DNA from: Glutamicibacter uratoxydans | Lineage (GTDB): Bacteria > Actinomycetota > Actinomycetes > Actinomycetales > Micrococcaceae | DNA length: 64,000 nt | Direction: 5' to 3' | Assembly: GCF_006539925.1 (NCBI RefSeq) | Contig: NZ_BJNY01000002.1 | Coordinates: 124,001-188,000 of the forward strand | Part shown: positions 2,461-11,006 of the stretch, in pieces | Position numbering within the stretch: position 1 is the stretch's first letter | How the letters are laid out: every line of letters starts with the position of its first letter | Made by a program: the position numbers and the translations under genes | Notes under the pieces: generated by a model | Database searches by the model: none | Seen by the model: the letters and a program-made list of their open reading frames with translations, nothing else | What the model was told of the DNA's origin: nothing

Positions 2461-3951
2461 ATGACAGCTTTATATGTCGATGTTGCCCCCAGCCTTCTCC
2501 GCTGGGCTGTTGCCCGTGCCGGCTGGGATGCGGAAACCACCGCACGCCGAGCACCGAAATTTGACGACTGGATTGAAGGCAGAAAGCGCCCCACTTTCAA
2601 GCAGATCGAAAAGTTCGCCAATGACACCCACGCTCCCCTGGGGCTGCTCTTTCTGAAGGAACCTCCGGTTGAAACAGTTCCGATTCCAGACATGCGCACG
2701 TTGGGTAACGAGCGGCTCTCCCAACCATCTGCAGATCTGCTCGACACCATATACCTTTGCCAGGAACATCAAGACTGGTACCGAGACTACGCAATCGAAC
2801 AAGGTGCCGAAAAACTATCGTTCGTCGGTTCCTCTTCGGCAGCCGATGACCCAGAAATCGTTGCCGGCTTTATTCGGAAGGCACTGCGCTTCGAACCATC
2901 CACGCGCGCTGAATTTCCTACGTGGGAGGAATCTCTCCGCCAGCTGATCATCCGAATTGAAGAGCTCGGTGTTCTCGTCAAGGTCAGTGGCATCGTCGGC
3001 TCCAACACGCAACGCAAGCTCAAGACCGATGAGTTCCGAGGGTTCGTACTCGCCGATGAAATTGCGCCGCTAATCTTCGTCAACGGCGCTGATACCAAAG
3101 CCGGACAGATCTTCACGCTCATTCACGAGTTCGCTCATCTATACCTCGGTGAGAGCGCGCTCTCCGATTCCGCACTAGGTAGGCCCAGCACCTCCACACA
3201 TGAACTCTGGTGCAATAAAGTAGCCGCCGAAGTGCTAGTTCCTCGCGCCTTGCTCAGCAAGGACTTCACCGGCACCGTGACCAGTGAAGAGTTGAACAGG
3301 CTGGCTCGACGCTACAAGGTCAGCACTCTCGTAGTCCTCAAGAGCATCTTCGATGCGGGCTTCCTGACTTGGGAACAGTATCAAGAACACTACAGTGACG
3401 AATTCAAGCGGATCATGGAGCTAGTGGCCGCTCGCAAGTCTGAGAGCGGTGGGAATTACTACTACACCCAACCCATTCGGCTAAGTCGCCAGTTCGCTCA
3501 GGCAGTACTCTCTAGCACTTTGCAGGGAGAGACGACATTTCGCGATGCCTACCAGATGCTGGGAACCAAAAAAACACGAGACGTTCATGGGTCTAGCGGA
3601 ACAGCTGGGGGTCGCCTGATGTACCTCGTGGATGCAAACGTCCTCATCGAAGCGAAGAACCGCTACTACGCATTCGATATTGCGCCCGGGTTCTGGGCTT
3701 GGTTGGACCAAGCCCATGCCCAGCATCTAGCCTGCTCAATCGAGGCGGTACGCCAAGAACTATTAGCCGGAGCTGACGAGTTGTCCCAGTGGGCCAGGGC
3801 ACGCCCTGATTTCTTCCGTCCTATGGATGCTCAGACGGTAGCCCAATTTTCGGATCTCACCACCTGGGCGCAAAGCAGGCAGTACCAGCAGTCGGCGCTC
3901 AACGCATTCACTGGCAACGATGCAGATTACCTTTTGATCGCGCATGCATGA
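2461..3951 (+). CDS. ImmA/IrrE metallopeptidase read through into a PIN-like (DUF4411) domain
   Basis: Residues 1-70 resemble the Xre-like helix-turn-helix that precedes ImmA/IrrE domains. Residues 120-330 are the zinc peptidase, with HEFAH at 222-226 and a third ligand probably at E257. Normally such a gene ends and a separate DUF4411 PIN-like toxin gene follows. Here the frame runs on through an A7 run (3568-3574) into the toxin at residue 387. One base fewer in the run would give a natural ImmA ending (FMGLAEQLGVA) with TGA overlapping the toxin ATG (TGATG). The fusion is thus best explained by a one-base insertion, a sequencing error, or slippage at the A-run. A strong GAGGAGG supports the start. 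Confidence 0.75.
   Translation: MTALYVDVAPSLLRWAVARAGWDAETTARRAPKFDDWIEGRKRPTFKQIEKFANDTHAPLGLLFLKEPPVETVPIPDMRTLGNERLSQPSADLLDTIYLCQEHQDWYRDYAIEQGAEKLSFVGSSSAADDPEIVAGFIRKALRFEPSTRAEFPTWEESLRQLIIRIEELGVLVKVSGIVGSNTQRKLKTDEFRGFVLADEIAPLIFVNGADTKAGQIFTLIHEFAHLYLGESALSDSALGRPSTSTHELWCNKVAAEVLVPRALLSKDFTGTVTSEELNRLARRYKVSTLVVLKSIFDAGFLTWEQYQEHYSDEFKRIMELVAARKSESGGNYYYTQPIRLSRQFAQAVLSSTLQGETTFRDAYQMLGTKKTRDVHGSSGTAGGRLMYLVDANVLIEAKNRYYAFDIAPGFWAWLDQAHAQHLACSIEAVRQELLAGADELSQWARARPDFFRPMDAQTVAQFSDLTTWAQSRQYQQSALNAFTGNDADYLLIAHA
3568..3574 (+). other. A7 homopolymer at the ImmA/toxin junction
   Basis: Seven A residues occupy codons AAA-AAA-A. Removing one A, or a +1 slip, restores an ImmA-like C-terminus ending at TGA 3617-3619. 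This is the probable frameshift or slippage site. Confidence 0.65.
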
Positions 3952-6412: not shown

Positions 6413-7021
6413 ATGGCACGCCCCTCAAAGCCAAAGCTCAATACCGACATCATCGCCAAGGCGGCGCTGGCACTGGTGGACAAGCATGGAGAATTCACCC
6501 TTCCGCAGCTGGCCAAGGCGCTGTCGGTCAGCGCCTCCTCGCTGTACAACCATGTGCAGGGTAAAGATGAGATCGTCGAGCTCATGCGCGGCCACGCCAT
6601 GTCAGCCATCAAGCTGCCCGAGGCCCAAGACGGGGATTGGCAGCAGACGGTGCGGGACATCGCCACCGCCTATTGGGATTCCTACTCGAAGCACCCGCGG
6701 CTGATCCCCCTGCTCACCAGCCATACCGTGCGCGACCGCACCACCCTGCGCGTCTACGATGCGCTGGCCGAGGCCTTCGCCCAGGCAGGATTCGCGCCGG
6801 AGCAGCGGCTGCAAGTCATCACCATCGTCGATTCCTTTGTGCTCGGCTCCGCACTGGATGCAGCTGCTCCGGAGCAGGTATGGGAAGCCGACGATACCTC
6901 CAGCCCTCAATTCAAGGAAGCCCTGGAAGCAGGCCTGCCCCTCGCACAGCGCGCAGAGGTCACTTTCCTGATGGGTCTGGACGTGATCCTAAACGGACTC
7001 TCGGCTGTTCCGCGCGCCTAG
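6413..7021 (+). CDS. TetR-family repressor of the agmatine module
   Basis: A 202-residue one-component regulator. The N-terminal helix-turn-helix (about residues 12-58, with LPQLAKALSVSASSLYNHVQGKDEI) is typical of TetR, and the C-terminal part resembles the TetR_C ligand/dimer domain. It is divergent from aguB-aguA with two copies of the palindrome in the 143-bp gap, and two more copies precede the APC permease. I infer that it represses enzymes and transporter until agmatine or a related amine binds. A GGAAGG site precedes the ATG. Its stop overlaps the stop of the convergent signal peptidase gene by 4 bp. Confidence 0.88.
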   Translation: MARPSKPKLNTDIIAKAALALVDKHGEFTLPQLAKALSVSASSLYNHVQGKDEIVELMRGHAMSAIKLPEAQDGDWQQTVRDIATAYWDSYSKHPRLIPLLTSHTVRDRTTLRVYDALAEAFAQAGFAPEQRLQVITIVDSFVLGSALDAAAPEQVWEADDTSSPQFKEALEAGLPLAQRAEVTFLMGLDVILNGLSAVPRA

Positions 7022-8091
7022 TGCGGTGTGCAGGTCAGCCGCCTATTGGACCCCAAGAGGCCAGCAGTTGCATGCACCTGGGTGAAACTCACCGGTCTCG
7101 ACTGCCACGAATCGTAATTTGCGTAGATGGCGACGGTAAACGTTCGGTCGAATCCGACCAATAGGTCAAGCAGCGCACCGAGCAGGCTATTGCTGGAAGT
7201 AATGCTCGTGCTGTAGCTGCGCACCGAAGCCGCCAACGTTTCGCTCTTGATCGCTGTGCTTCCGTTGAGCTGTCCCGTCACGAGAAAACTTGTGGGTGCA
7301 ATGCCTGTCGTTCCCCAGTTGAATCTGATGGTTTCACCGTTGCCCTGAACGTTCGTGCAGGTCACATTGGCTGGTGGCGCAAGCGTTGCAGCCTGCAGGT
7401 ATCCCGCAGCCCTTGCACTGCCCAAGAATGCTGCCTGGGTACTTTGCGGTGCAGGGACTTTCAACCCTATGCCTACCATGCACATCGCCACCGCACCTAT
7501 AAGCAGTACGTTCCTCAGCGGTGCATGTCTTGCAGTTTTCGAATCTAGTGATGGCTTCAGCGCACCTGAGTCCTTGCGCTTCTTACTGGGCAGGTTTCTT
7601 CCATCTCCGTCGTTCGGCCCATTCTTTTGTCCCACCGCCCCAAAAGCCACGTACAACAGATAGGCGCACAACAACCCACCCAGAAAATAGGCCCACGGCT
7701 GACTCATCCAAGACACCACAGAACCCAACAGCGGAACGCTGAAGATCAGCTTATCGACCGTGGTGACAGGGTAAGGCTGTAGATCGGCAACGGGATTGGC
7801 GTCGCCTTTAAGCACCAAGCCCTCGGGAAGAATCTCAACGACCCGGTGGGTGATCCGTGCATCCGCGCTGGTCTGAACCGAAACGATGTCTCCGGCGGCA
7901 ATCTCATTCACGTTTGCCGGCACCGCGATGCCCAGTGAGCCGGTCGGAATCATCGGGCCCATTGAACCGCTGGCGAACATCAACGGCTTCAATCCGAAGA
8001 GCACCGAGGCCAGGGCAAAGAACAGGCAGACGACTCCCAGCACCGCCCCCAGATTCAGCGCCGCCGACTGGATAGTTCTTTTGCTGACCAT
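7018..8091 (-). CDS. SipW-type signal peptidase I fused to a cargo-like exported domain
   Basis: Residues 1-155 form a signal peptidase of the SipW/ER type: a membrane helix at 8-32, catalytic Ser at S43 (SGSMGP), His instead of Lys at H82 (THRV), a GDAN box near 96-99, and a second helix at about 133-153. A basic linker follows. Residues 193-211 are another hydrophobic helix followed by TQAAFLGSARA, which looks like an alternate-type signal peptide, and then about 130 residues of probable beta-sandwich. The peptidase therefore seems joined to one of its own substrates. Start at 8091 (ATG, TGAGATG with the previous stop); upstream in-frame codons overlap the previous gene and are rejected. 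Confidence 0.8.
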   Translation of the reverse strand: MVSKRTIQSAALNLGAVLGVVCLFFALASVLFGLKPLMFASGSMGPMIPTGSLGIAVPANVNEIAAGDIVSVQTSADARITHRVVEILPEGLVLKGDANPVADLQPYPVTTVDKLIFSVPLLGSVVSWMSQPWAYFLGGLLCAYLLYVAFGAVGQKNGPNDGDGRNLPSKKRKDSGALKPSLDSKTARHAPLRNVLLIGAVAMCMVGIGLKVPAPQSTQAAFLGSARAAGYLQAATLAPPANVTCTNVQGNGETIRFNWGTTGIAPTSFLVTGQLNGSTAIKSETLAASVRSYSTSITSSNSLLGALLDLLVGFDRTFTVAIYANYDSWQSRPVSFTQVHATAGLLGSNRRLTCTPH

Positions 8092-8092
8092 C

Positions 8093-8671
8093 TCAGGACC
8101 CGACCGAGGCGGTGAAAACGACGTCGATCTTCGTTGCCGCGCCCTGCAGGTTATTAGCGGCGGCCGTCGGCAACGAATACTGCACACAGTAAGTCTCCGA
8201 TCCATTGGGCGCCAGCTGAGCTGGTCTGGCCGCCGGTGCGTCGAATGCCGCCCCGGATGCTTTGGAAATGACTGGTGTTCCACCGGTGCATGTTGCCGCG
8301 GGTGCAGTGCCGGTAATGCTTGCCCCGCTGCGCACCGAAACTTGCATCGCCTTCCCCAATTCATATTGGGAGGACTCGGTGATGGCACCCTGCATTGAGT
8401 AGGAGACCGCCACCGAACTGCTGTTCTTTACCGTCACCAAGGCAGCAGCGCTTGCACCCGGGTACCAATCTGTACCCGTAATCGGCACGGTGTAGGTGCT
8501 GGTGGTTGCGGAAGTAGCATTGGCCCCCACACCCAGCGACACTGTTGCCGCGGTAATGCTCGTGGTGGCCGTTGCAGTTCCAGTCCAGGCAGCTAAGGTG
8601 GTCACTGTTCCGAAACCAACAAGCAAGCCTAGGGACAGCAGCGCTTTAATCTTTGTCGATCGGTTGCTCAC
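8093..8671 (-). CDS. Exported protein with SipW-dependent (alternate-type) signal peptide
   Basis: A 192-residue secreted protein. The N-terminus is basic, then hydrophobic (LLSLGLLVGFGTVTTLAAW), the pattern seen in TasA/camelysin-like substrates of SipW peptidases, followed by a Thr/Ser/Ala-rich predicted beta-sandwich. Two Cys residues in the C-terminal half could form a disulfide. The GTG start at 8671 overlaps the preceding stop (GTGA). As the fifth gene of the operon it is likely processed by one of the two encoded peptidases. Function in a surface fibre or matrix is inference. Confidence 0.78.
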   Translation of the reverse strand: MSNRSTKIKALLSLGLLVGFGTVTTLAAWTGTATATTSITAATVSLGVGANATSATTSTYTVPITGTDWYPGASAAALVTVKNSSSVAVSYSMQGAITESSQYELGKAMQVSVRSGASITGTAPAATCTGGTPVISKASGAAFDAPAARPAQLAPNGSETYCVQYSLPTAAANNLQGAATKIDVVFTASVGS

Positions 8672-9276
8672 TCTGAGTTTCCTCTCCCGCTGGAATTATC
8701 GCCGTGCGTGCGGCAACAGACTTTGAGGCTGATCATTCCAGCAGCAGTCAGGGCTAGTCCCATGATCAGCGGCCACGAATTAAAACCTGCATCAGACAGA
8801 TGATCAGGGGCCTGCGGATTTGCCTCACCTTCGGTCGAAAGTTCACTGGATCGAACTTGCAGTTGCAGTTGCTCGGTCCTGTCAGCCGACGAATTCCCGG
8901 CGTCCTCCGGCAGTTCTACCTGCAGTGCCACCCATGCCTTCTCTTGCGGTGCCAGCTGAAACCTAGATTCTCCAATGGTCGTGAATTCCATTGCCGATTC
9001 TACTTCTGGCCGTTTCGGTGTCACTGCCATTTCAACTTTGCTGGAATGGTCGTTGCGAATCCAGATACCACCGGCCAATCTGTCGCCGGGAACTAACCGG
9101 TCCGGGCCGTCAAAAATAGAGCCAGGATGGTCGGTAAAACTCCGGCCATCATTGCTGAAGCTAACTGAATTGCCGTCAGACTCGTTGGCCATGCTCGGCA
9201 CAGCGGCGAGGCAGAGGGCTACCAAGGCTAGCGCAGTACTCACACCCAATTTGTTCGCCCTTTCCAGGAGATTCAC
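8668..9276 (-). CDS. Secreted membrane-anchored protein of the SipW operon
   Basis: A 202-residue protein with a signal peptide (about residues 8-29, ending near AVPSMA), an extracellular domain of about 140 residues with predicted beta strands, and a C-terminal membrane helix (SWPLIMGLALTAAGMI) followed by a short cytoplasmic tail. There is no LPXTG motif. The GTG start at 9276 overlaps the upstream stop (GTGA) and follows GGAGGAG. I do not recognise the family; position between the peptidase and a cargo gene suggests a surface anchor or assembly partner. Confidence 0.75.
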   Translation of the reverse strand: MNLLERANKLGVSTALALVALCLAAVPSMANESDGNSVSFSNDGRSFTDHPGSIFDGPDRLVPGDRLAGGIWIRNDHSSKVEMAVTPKRPEVESAMEFTTIGESRFQLAPQEKAWVALQVELPEDAGNSSADRTEQLQLQVRSSELSTEGEANPQAPDHLSDAGFNSWPLIMGLALTAAGMISLKVCCRTHGDNSSGRGNSE

Positions 9277-9842
9277 GACTCCTCCTTCTTGCGGCGATCG
9301 CGTATTGCTCCAGCAAACATCACCAGGGAATAGGTCGATAAACCGACAACGGCTGTCCAAGTAAGCCAGGTACGCTGCTGTCCGGTGAGAGTTGAATTCA
9401 CATAGCCGAGCCATGGCAGTGAATACCAAAGCCTTCCTCGAACTTGCTCGCTCCGCACAGGGTCATCATCAACGTTGTTTGCGTCTCCACGAGTTATCAG
9501 CCTCTTGCTGCCGTCAACCTTCGACTCGATACCCACGACTCGGTGCGTCACGACCTTCGGCTTGCCGGATTCCAGCTGATAGGTCACCACATCTCCAGCA
9601 CGAATCTGATCGAAGGGCACCGGTTTGACCACGATAAATTCACCGGGCGGAAAATTAGGGCGCATGGATCCTGTCAGCACGGTATAAGTTGCCGCCCCGC
9701 CGATCCTTGGGATCACGATCATTACCGCGATCAGCAGGACCACAACAAATAGGACAAGCCAAGAAACAATTTGCCCAATCCACCAGAATGCTCCGGTCTT
9801 TGCTCGCTTGCCGTGGTGCCGCCGCAGAGTTGAGGTGTTCAC
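9273..9842 (-). CDS. SipW-type signal peptidase I
   Basis: A 189-residue membrane peptidase with helices at about residues 18-45 and 155-175. The catalytic Ser-His pair is visible at S59 (LTGSMRP) and H100 (VTHRV), with the GDANN box at D120. The use of His rather than Lys marks the SipW/ER/archaeal type rather than the LepB type. The GTG start at 9842 overlaps the previous stop (GTGA). Its substrates are most likely the alternate-signal proteins encoded in the same operon. Confidence 0.9.
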   Translation of the reverse strand: MNTSTLRRHHGKRAKTGAFWWIGQIVSWLVLFVVVLLIAVMIVIPRIGGAATYTVLTGSMRPNFPPGEFIVVKPVPFDQIRAGDVVTYQLESGKPKVVTHRVVGIESKVDGSKRLITRGDANNVDDDPVRSEQVRGRLWYSLPWLGYVNSTLTGQQRTWLTWTAVVGLSTYSLVMFAGAIRDRRKKEES

Positions 9843-10429
9843 AATTGCTGCCCCACGAATCTCAAGACGAGTTTCAATTTTCCACCGGAAGCCTGCTGCG
9901 AAGCATTGGAAGGAAGTGCCACACGGACGCACAGCGACTCGGACGTGTTTGCGCCCGTCCCTGCCGCGAGGACTCGGTTCTGGCTAAATTTCGTATTGCT
10001 CCCAAGCGGGCCAGAATAGAGGAGCTGGCCGGTTAGCGCGGCGTCGGCGGCGCAATCCTTCGGGTTCATTCCCGCATAAATTGAGAGCAGGCTCTGCTCA
10101 GCAAGCGACCTGTCTGCGGCGGTGGCATTGGCCGGTGCACTGACAGCGTCAACGAGGTTGTAGCGCAAGTCCACTGAGCCGGAGTTGAGAACCTCCAGGG
10201 GCGCCTGGGAGAACTTTCCCGGCCAGAGGTTTGCGTCGTCCAATTGGCTAAAGTTCAACGTGCCGCTGCTCTGGCCGCCAGCTGCCAACATCAGCTTCAA
10301 CGATCCGGTAGTCATTGCACCGGCATCGATTTCATTATTGACGCGCCACGAAGCGACCGTGCCCTGGGCGCTTAGACCAAGCGCCAAGATCACGGTCGCG
10401 ACAAAGAGTACTTTAAGCTGTTTCGGCAT
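9839..10429 (-). CDS. Exported protein with SipW-dependent signal peptide
   Basis: A 196-residue secreted protein starting MPKQLKVLF with a hydrophobic segment ending in GTVASW and then DAGAMTTGSLKL, a layout shared with the first gene of the operon (GTVALW, DAGQIDTGHLNL). The rest is predicted beta-rich and has two Cys. The start at 10429 is 22 nt after the previous stop; an open extension of 14 codons upstream is less likely. It is probably cut by the SipW-type peptidase encoded next. Confidence 0.78.
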   Translation of the reverse strand: MPKQLKVLFVATVILALGLSAQGTVASWRVNNEIDAGAMTTGSLKLMLAAGGQSSGTLNFSQLDDANLWPGKFSQAPLEVLNSGSVDLRYNLVDAVSAPANATAADRSLAEQSLLSIYAGMNPKDCAADAALTGQLLYSGPLGSNTKFSQNRVLAAGTGANTSESLCVRVALPSNASQQASGGKLKLVLRFVGQQL

Positions 10430-10451
10430 TGCTCTCACAAGAACAGTCAGC

Positions 10452-11006
10452 TTATGGGCGCACCTGGTCAAGCGTCAGCGACAGGTTGGATAGGTCTACG
10501 CTCTGATCCATGGTGGACGACGGCGTCGACCCGGTGGTGCCTTCGGCAAACCCTACGGTAATACTGACTGGAACGTCGTAGTTTCCTTCATCAGCAAAGG
10601 AGATGACGTTTCCGCTTTTCACCAGTCCCGCAGCGCTCGCGTCTGCATCGACGGTGACAGTGACCTGACCGGCCAATGAAGCTGGAATTGCATCTAGAGT
10701 TCCTACCTTCAGTGCACCCTGCAGGTTCTTGCCCGCAGCCGCGATGCTCGCGGTCTGGGTGAACTTGACCGTATCGCCTGGGACCAGTTTGAAGTCGCTT
10801 ACGTTGGTGATAGGTTCCGGTGCAGCGGCATCACTAATATCGCTCCACTGTCCGTCCGTTCCAAGGGTGAGATTTAGGTGCCCGGTGTCAATCTGCCCGG
10901 CATCGACGGTATCGGTACTCTGCCACAGTGCAACAGTTCCTGCGCCTCCCAGCAGCAATGCGCCTGCAGCGACAGCAGCAATAGTCGCTTTGGTTACTTT
11001 CTTCAT
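10452..11006 (-). CDS. Exported protein with SipW-dependent signal peptide (first gene of operon)
   Basis: A 184-residue secreted protein. The signal begins MKKVTKATIAAVAAGALLLG and ends in GTVALWQSTD, the alternate-type pattern; the mature part is acidic, Cys-free and predicted beta-sandwich (TasA-like in layout). GAGG lies about 12 nt before the ATG at 11006. As the promoter-proximal gene it is likely the most abundant product and could be the main structural subunit; that role is inferred. Confidence 0.78.
   Translation of the reverse strand: MKKVTKATIAAVAAGALLLGGAGTVALWQSTDTVDAGQIDTGHLNLTLGTDGQWSDISDAAAPEPITNVSDFKLVPGDTVKFTQTASIAAAGKNLQGALKVGTLDAIPASLAGQVTVTVDADASAAGLVKSGNVISFADEGNYDVPVSITVGFAEGTTGSTPSSTMDQSVDLSNLSLTLDQVRP

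Follow-up and report, generated by a model that had tools for sequence, protein, structure and literature searches.

The 64,000-nucleotide stretch of Glutamicibacter uratoxydans DNA analysed here (contig NZ_BJNY01000002.1, positions 124,001 to 188,000; hereafter the window) carries at 7018-11006, all on the minus strand, six open reading frames (ORFs) in the order C1, C2, SipA, anchor, C3 and SipB, where SipA and SipB are signal peptidases, C1 to C3 small cargo proteins and the anchor a membrane-anchored protein. This is a real, conserved two-peptidase system of the SipW type, with cargo of the TasA superfamily and with a fusion of one peptidase to a candidate substrate, the fusion being its most novel part. 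We give a probability of about 0.58 to the reading in which the operon is a dedicated export, processing and wall-anchoring system for TasA-like donor-strand fibres, and it is reasonable to infer that a surface fibre forms.

Two SipW-type peptidases in a conserved operon

Both peptidases passed TIGR02228, the model for the signal peptidase I of endoplasmic reticulum (ER) and archaeal type (97.6 bits for SipA and 56.0 bits for SipB, cut-off 51.85), and fell short of the 190-bit cut-off of NF046067, the equivalog model for Bacillus SipW (72.1 and 40.3 bits). As the sequence-only reading of this DNA had proposed, both have Ser-His in place of Ser-Lys as catalytic residues; the Ser, the His and the Asp of the GDxN motif are kept across relatives. 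For the tree, 142 peptidase domains were used (54 SipA and 88 SipB, the window's two included), rows without the GSM motif being left out (24/77 SipA and 4/91 SipB), and in this trimmed set the Ser is present in 142/142 and the His in 141/142, with one gap. When all 168 peptidases were rechecked, the Ser motif was absent solely from one of the two fragments into which the SipA gene of L081 is split, and the His pattern solely from the second of these fragments and from L116. This split gene of Gordonia spumicola (L081:5276-6297) reads as two overlapping ORFs, by a frameshift or an error. In the tree, SipA and SipB fall into two distinct clades with support 1.0 and 0/142 domains misplaced; since the separation is complete at this support across loci from several orders, the pair is old and not a recent duplication. 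A Pfam search on the six window proteins gave the peptidase domain of SipA as its sole match. The window genome also has three ordinary signal peptidases I, all on other contigs.

The six-gene minus-strand operon, its coordinates, the single membrane-anchored protein, with a C-terminal transmembrane segment (TM), and the three GTGA overlaps at which SipA, the anchor and C3 begin with GTG agree with the earlier description. The overlaps lie at 9839-9842 (C2/SipA), 9273-9276 (SipA/anchor) and 8668-8671 (anchor/C3), with 22 bases between C1 and C2 and 1 base between C3 and SipB. In 15 related loci, a 4-base overlap is found between C2 and SipA in 14/14 loci having C2, between SipA and the anchor in 15/15 and between the anchor and C3 in 12/15, its sequence being ATGA, or GTGA in two cases. 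Because the same 4-base overlaps are kept across these loci, they exceed chance.

The sequence-only reading had placed the arrangement in this lineage, which proved too narrow. From 110 loci, 80 named loci were kept; they were fetched with SipB, so that the C3-SipB pairing is overstated and the counts are no measure of prevalence in the phylum. Both peptidases lie at most 4 kb apart on one strand in 69/80 of these loci, the genera represented being Glutamicibacter, Rhodococcus, Gordonia, Nocardioides, Aeromicrobium and others, and C3 directly precedes SipB in 75/80, a count favoured by the way of fetching. The exact six-gene order is present in 26/80 and the order without C2 in 14/80. A lineage-specific operon was rejected, since the arrangement recurs in several actinobacterial orders.

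Among 17 same-genus relatives, 12 have the six-gene order (L033-L044), with SipB split by a stop in L037, and another (G013) has a variant operon without C2; in three of the remaining four genomes a SipB match is absent and the fourth (G007) gave one weaker match. Ten of the 12 six-gene loci share the window's neighbour genes on both sides, which we take to encode a glutaminase and a thioesterase on one side and a TetR protein and an agmatine deiminase on the other; L037 and L038 show within the fetched stretch solely the side of the glutaminase and thioesterase. In a survey of 97 genomes of the same genus, family and order, in which 20 regions were fetched and looked at, at least 13 genomes in the genus and at least 2 others (G040, G042) have both peptidases in one operon. 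In a phylum sample of 119 genomes, two close TIGR02228 matches over the cut-off were found in the window genome alone; this sample consists mostly of other classes and SipB-type proteins lie near the cut-off, so that no prevalence was drawn from it. A contig scan with a single SipB protein as query covered 46 stretches and found no relative. In Aeromicrobium (L099, L109, L123, L126) most of the operon is present in two head-to-tail copies, and in Rhodococcus (L095, L103, L110, L129) a second C3-SipB pair follows the first, with the long tail on the last SipB alone. The C3-SipB module thus seems to duplicate as a unit.

Cargos, their signals and the domain fused to SipB

The earlier count of three cargos has to be raised to four, the fourth (C4) being a domain like fibronectin type III (Fn3) fused to SipB behind a TQA-AF site. 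All four window cargos carry T-x-A-x-[W/F] at the predicted cut, marked here by a hyphen (TVA-LW, TVA-SW, TLA-AW and TQA-AF), with W or F two places past it (P2'), the predicted cuts being a reading of the motif. The GTV-x(1-3)-W signature noted earlier holds for C1 (GTVALW) and C2 (GTVASW) but not for C3, which reads GTV-TTLAA-W, and the signature common to all is T-x-A-x-[W/F]. [TS]xAx[WFY] follows the hydrophobic stretch in 81/86 C1, 53/53 C2, 90/91 C3 and 45/68 SipB tails, the tails giving a mean of 7 and a maximum of 15 in 200 shuffles. In the controls, the motif was found in 0/61 N-termini of anchor-like proteins, 0/77 N-terminal TMs of SipA and 1/68 of SipB. Conservation in C1, C2 and C3 is among the highest at the aromatic residue and in a Pro-Gly box; this box shows no variation in the alignments of C1 and C2 and is kept to 90% or more in that of C3. 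A conserved "proline box" is described, in the excerpt of the TasA study available, in the protomer interface near A28/F29 (PMC10151520), and the Pro-Gly box of the cargos may be its counterpart.

C1 passes TIGR04089 (exp_by_SipW_III; 137.9 bits, cut-off 60), a family for which RER_14450 is presumably a locus name; C2 reaches 16.9 bits, under the cut-off, and C3 has no match to it. SipW-type signal models and predicted folds had been named in the sequence-only reading as checks on the cargos. The signal model TIGR04088 (cut-off 19) bears out a SipW-type signal for C1 (26.9 bits) but stays below the cut-off for C3 (17.5 bits in a six-frame search, and no match in the protein-level model search); in the window genome it matches solely these two genes, and nothing outside the operon at an expectation value (E) <=0.1. 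C2 is homologous to C3 along its length (hhalign, E 3.4e-22 over 181 columns), and C1 aligns with C2 over residues 1-125 and with C3 solely over residues 17-84, part of this being the shared signal.

Kinship to TasA, also proposed earlier, is favoured through the C3 family. In the hand-picked alignment A6, 68 members (the window's C3, 63/89 C3 stretches and 4 members from further genomes) were compared with models at E<=0.1: 52 match Camelysin PF12389 (best 2.9e-9), 60 TIGR04088, 44 TIGR04089, 15 TasA NF046066 and 15 BsaA TIGR04090; at the same threshold TIGR04089 is matched by 14/15 C2-family members. On 10 C3 members taken singly, PF12389, which carries the name metallo-endopeptidase, gave 4 matches above its 22.5-bit cut-off, 5 below and 1 none, and in 8/9 members the match runs from residue 17-21 to 94-101, i.e. 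over the signal and the first strands. Since the window's C3 is homologous to C3 members matching PF12389, its placement in the TasA/camelysin superfamily is supported. Against the PDB, the C3 profile matched AbpX at 5.8e-4 and 5.4e-3 and TasA at 0.073 and 0.093, and with the smaller alignment A3 the sole two matches up to E 1 were AbpX (0.13 and 0.16). Both the start of TasA (TFASGTLDL...KPGD) and its end (QGNSIKLQFSFEATQ) align to the C3 profile, and they do so in order, which favours homology of TasA and C3. PDB profile searches with C1 and C2 gave nothing informative. The AlphaFold2 models of C1 and C3 (predicted local distance difference test scores 79.8 and 73.7) are both beta-rich, and Foldseek lists the AbpA bundling pilus (7ueg) at rank 4 for C1 and rank 3 for C3, but with template modelling scores (TM-scores) of just 0.35-0.38; the TM-scores for AbpA and TasA are about 0.3-0.4, other beta-sandwiches rank equally high and the predicted folds speak only weakly for this kinship.

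SipB extends by about 207 amino acids beyond residue 150, and a tail longer than 120 amino acids is present in 68/91 SipB ORFs of the named loci. A profile of 21 C4 domains (alignment A7, hand-picked: the window's C4, 19/68 long tails and L047) matched fibronectin-III chains in the PDB with a best E of 8.4e-10; Pfam fn3 was found in 3/21 members, the window's C4 not among them. We therefore read the tail as an Fn3-like domain that follows a SipW-type signal lying inside the protein. A profile of the C1-C3 signals scored at least 5 bits in 28/68 tails and below 5 in 40/68, compared with 1/340 shuffled tails and 0/229 control segments (61 anchor, 91 SipB N-terminal and 77 SipA). TIGR04088, run on 10 fragments, reached 17.8-18.2 bits in three (one separate gene and two fused tails; cut-off 19) and matched neither the window's fragment nor the six others.

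The same domain also occurs unfused. In G013 (L047) a SipB of 186 amino acids is followed by a separate 170-amino-acid gene with the signal AAWTDTAQASAG, and L048 likewise has the C4-type domain as a separate gene. A C4 profile built without the signal and without L047, searched against 5,805 ORFs, matched both genes (L047, E 1.9e-10, signal AAWTD; L048, 3.3e-5, AAWSD) and ORFs beside short SipB genes in L102, L101, L093 and L111 (8.8e-5 to 1.2e-3). A recent chance fusion is unlikely, fused and separate forms both being found in several genera. In L081, L098, L107 and L121, a protein of 305-376 amino acids with a SipW-like signal (aromatic in L107 alone) overlaps the end of a short SipB; it was rejected as unfused C4, with no C4-profile match at E<=10, and is perhaps another cargo that takes the place of C4. 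In Glutamicibacter ardleyensis (L056:6932-8125) and in L037 an in-frame stop lies between SipB and the Fn3 cargo, a separation that is either natural or due to damage. In seven Rhodococcus loci (L066, L067, L069, L078, L079, L082, L085), LAAG replaces an aromatic residue at the expected cut of the SipB tail, and in these loci the treatment of the fused domain may differ.

The anchor appears to be LPXTG-like in relatives and degenerate in the window, a motif that the sequence-only reading had overlooked. LxxTG lies ahead of the TM in 15/16 aligned anchor proteins, the exception being the window's own, and canonical LPxTG is found in Nocardioides, Aeromicrobium and others, many Rhodococcus relatives being without it. 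On seven relatives, TIGR01167 (cut-off 15.9) was passed by L047 (20.5), L046 (17.4) and L045 (16.9), reached below the cut-off by L084 (14.4) and L040 (12.7) and not matched by L041 and L104. The soluble domain of the anchor had no match in the PDB profile search. The window genome has one class E and one class C sortase, both on other contigs. A sortase-built pilus was rejected for the operon, as C1-C3 lack LPXTG and the operon lacks a sortase. Elsewhere in the window genome (L054:134-2031), an LPLTG and TM protein lies directly ahead of the class C sortase, in what appears to be a separate pilus locus of sortase type.

Table 1. Features of the operon in window coordinates, with the evidence for each assignment (aa, amino acids)
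Feature	Position	Strand	Evidence
C1, SipW-type cargo, TIGR04089 (RER_14450, presumed locus name) family, 184 aa	10452..11006	-	ATG start; TIGR04089, TIGR04088 matches
C1 predicted cleavage motif TVALW, residues 24-28	10923-10937	-	motif scan
C2, SipW-type cargo, 196 aa, C3 homologue	9839..10429	-	ATG start; hhalign
C2 predicted cleavage motif TVASW, residues 24-28	10346-10360	-	motif scan
SipA, SipW/ER-type signal peptidase (Ser-His)	9273..9842	-	GTG start; TIGR02228
Anchor protein: ordinary-looking signal peptide, soluble domain, C-terminal TM	8668..9276	-	GTG start; sequence and alignment
Anchor sorting-like motif LSDAG, residues 160-164	8785-8799	-	alignment (LxxTG in the other 15 aligned)
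C3, putative TasA/camelysin-superfamily cargo, 192 aa	8093..8671	-	GTG start; relatives' PF12389, profile matches
C3 predicted cleavage motif TLAAW, residues 25-29	8585-8599	-	motif scan
SipB-C4, second SipW/ER-type peptidase (~residues 1-150) and fused fourth cargo, 357 aa	7018..8091	-	ATG start; TIGR02228
Hydrophobic segment ahead of C4, SipB residues ~192-216, read as internal SipW-type signal	7444..7518	-	sequence; tail TM in relatives
Predicted C4 cleavage motif TQAAF, SipB residues 218-222	7426..7440	-	motif scan
C4, fibronectin type III-like domain, two conserved Cys	7018..7425	-	PDB profile search, alignment

Outside the operon, one ORF at 2461-3951 on the plus strand (MYLVDANVLIEA...) seems to be a two-part joined protein, whose parts we take to be an XRE/ImmA-like protein of antitoxin type and a PIN-like domain; it may be a fused toxin-antitoxin or an effect of frame.

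A candidate fibre pathway and its alternatives

By analogy with Bacillus, the following pathway can be proposed. C1, C2, C3 and the C4 domain would cross the membrane on SipW-type signals and would then be cut by SipA and SipB, because the aromatic residue at P2' should make them poor substrates for the three ordinary signal peptidases of the cell. SipA would act on C1 and C2, and SipB on C3 and on C4, its own tail. Cutting would free an N-terminal strand starting near the aromatic residue, and subunits of the C2/C3 type, probably also C1, would polymerise by placing this strand into the next subunit, as in TasA and the archaeal bundling pilins. The Fn3-like C4 could be a starter or cap with a complete fold, in a role comparable to that of TapA, and the tail-anchored protein, which in relatives is a substrate of the sortase type, would fix the fibre to the cell. 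Available excerpts of the Bacillus work agree with this scheme, in that TasA polymerises through donor-strand residues 28-38 (PMC9674648), and that LepB of Escherichia coli cuts inefficiently when P2' is aromatic while SipW cuts TasA in B. subtilis (PMC10269814).

Several observations weigh against this pathway. In the same source, it is a Trp at P2 of TasA that blocks the active site of LepB (PMC10269814); since the P2 residues of the cargos are V, V, L and Q, with no Trp, the aromatic P2' may protect less from ordinary peptidases than supposed. Chance copies of the cut-site motif are present in the interior of proteins (C3 residue 139, SipB 319, anchor 161), the motif is missing from 23/68 SipB tails, and the window's tail, which has TQAAF, scores -2.7 bits with the C1-C3 signal profile. 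The window's own C2 and C3 match no Camelysin or TasA model, and PF12389 has no match in the window genome nor in 16/17 same-genus relatives, with matches in 10/58 genomes overall. An Ig-like (immunoglobulin-like) flagellar protein stands on top of the C3 profile search (1.4e-4), above AbpX, and taken one by one the two TasA segments score low (10.8 and 3.2 bits). Foldseek gave no match at E<=0.001 for the C1 model, and for C3 the insecticidal toxin Cry4Aa came best (E 6.0e-4), TasA being at rank 50. The window anchor has LSDAG and no TIGR01167 (LPXTG) match, and neither a promoter-like site 5' of C1 nor a terminator-like site 3' of SipB was found in the scan.

Some of these points would suit a dedicated secretion route whose products stay monomeric or form a coat, as an adhesin or protective layer, rather than donor-strand filaments. 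The weak fold matches of C1 and C3 and the lack of significant individual TasA matches for the window's C2 and C3 are in agreement with such products, and we know of no function for TIGR04089, a literature search on the names of this family having listed matches all on Bacillus. We nevertheless judge it unlikely, as C3-family members match the TasA, BsaA and Camelysin models and as the Pro-Gly box and the aromatic start, possible counterparts of parts of the TasA interface, are so well conserved. Less probable still, indeed very unlikely, is that the two peptidases are redundant copies whose arrangement is a local accident of duplication. Both pass the same TIGR02228 model, and the tandem copies in Aeromicrobium indicate that most of the operon can duplicate; against this, the two clades are fully separated over several orders and C3-SipB modules occur with no SipA in the fetched stretch (L112, L114, L124, L130, L134), which argues for a division of labour between the peptidases.

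The fate of the SipB tail is a narrower question. It is quite possible, if short of even odds, that the Fn3 tail stays on SipB throughout, with the second hydrophobic segment as a plain membrane anchor and C4 as a permanent, membrane-bound docking or assembly domain; this would be compatible with the donor-strand fibre operon. The weak tail signal in the window, the Rhodococcus subgroup with LAAG.D or LAAPL.. instead of an aromatic site and the long fused tail on most SipB genes are consistent with it, whereas the aromatic motif kept in two thirds of the tails and the occurrence of C4 in separate genes, including the ORFs beside short SipB genes, count against it. More speculative, and in our view rather doubtful, is that SipB-C4 joins a signal peptidase in cis with the substrate it cuts and acts as a membrane-tethered nucleator: SipB would trim C3 and, late or under regulation, its own Fn3 tail, whose N-terminal strand from the aromatic residue would start or end a TasA-like fibre. 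If true, processing and nucleation would be coupled in one molecule, TapA and SipW in one protein, and this would be conserved over several actinobacterial orders.

Returning to the fibre operon as a whole, donor-strand fibres of the TasA type have so far been studied in Bacillus, Clostridium and archaea, and our literature searches found no paper on such an actinobacterial operon among the matches listed. The data suggest that in many actinobacteria, including Rhodococcus and its relatives, the system is kept in a more elaborate form, with two peptidases that diverged long ago, a fusion of peptidase and substrate and a partner for anchoring to the wall. For the TIGR04089 family a testable function follows, and genetics could be used in this system to take apart the pairing of peptidases with cargos, the nucleation of the fibre and its attachment to the wall.

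Comparison with known systems

The TIGR04089 model itself names a protein family and not an operon or a function. C1 is a member, and Rhodococcus erythropolis (L076) has C1, C2, SipA, C3 and SipB, with an anchor-like gene on the other strand. A close likeness outside this group is with tapA-sipW-tasA of B. subtilis, which, in the available portions of its literature, also has an ER-type peptidase beside a TasA-like cargo, SipW-type signals in which an aromatic residue follows the cut, and an accessory protein, TapA, with a complete Ig-like fold and processed by SipW (PMC9674648, PMC10151520, PMC10269814). In contrast, the operon described here has two diverged peptidases, both below the equivalog cut-off of NF046067 (190), three small cargos and a further one of Fn3 type that is fused to SipB, and an anchor protein of LPXTG-like kind. 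The sipW-bsaABCRSD operon of Clostridium perfringens likewise combines SipW with several small secreted proteins, of which BsaA polymerises and needs SipW for its release, and differs in having a single peptidase and in encoding a two-component system among its genes, while the excerpt available mentions no fusion of peptidase and cargo (PMC7395162); the BsaA likeness of part of the C3 family (15/68 members with TIGR04090) is in agreement with this relation. In B. cereus, the sipW-tasA/calY region with CapP encodes an accessory protein besides two subunits of TasA type, and in its authors' model SipW processes all of them; it has one peptidase, and no LPXTG-like partner is mentioned in the part of the text available (PMC13082335). 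Finally, the bundling pili AbpA/AbpX resemble the cargos through the match of the C3 profile to AbpX and the listing of AbpA 7ueg for the C1 and C3 models, but they are archaeal and the similarity is weak.

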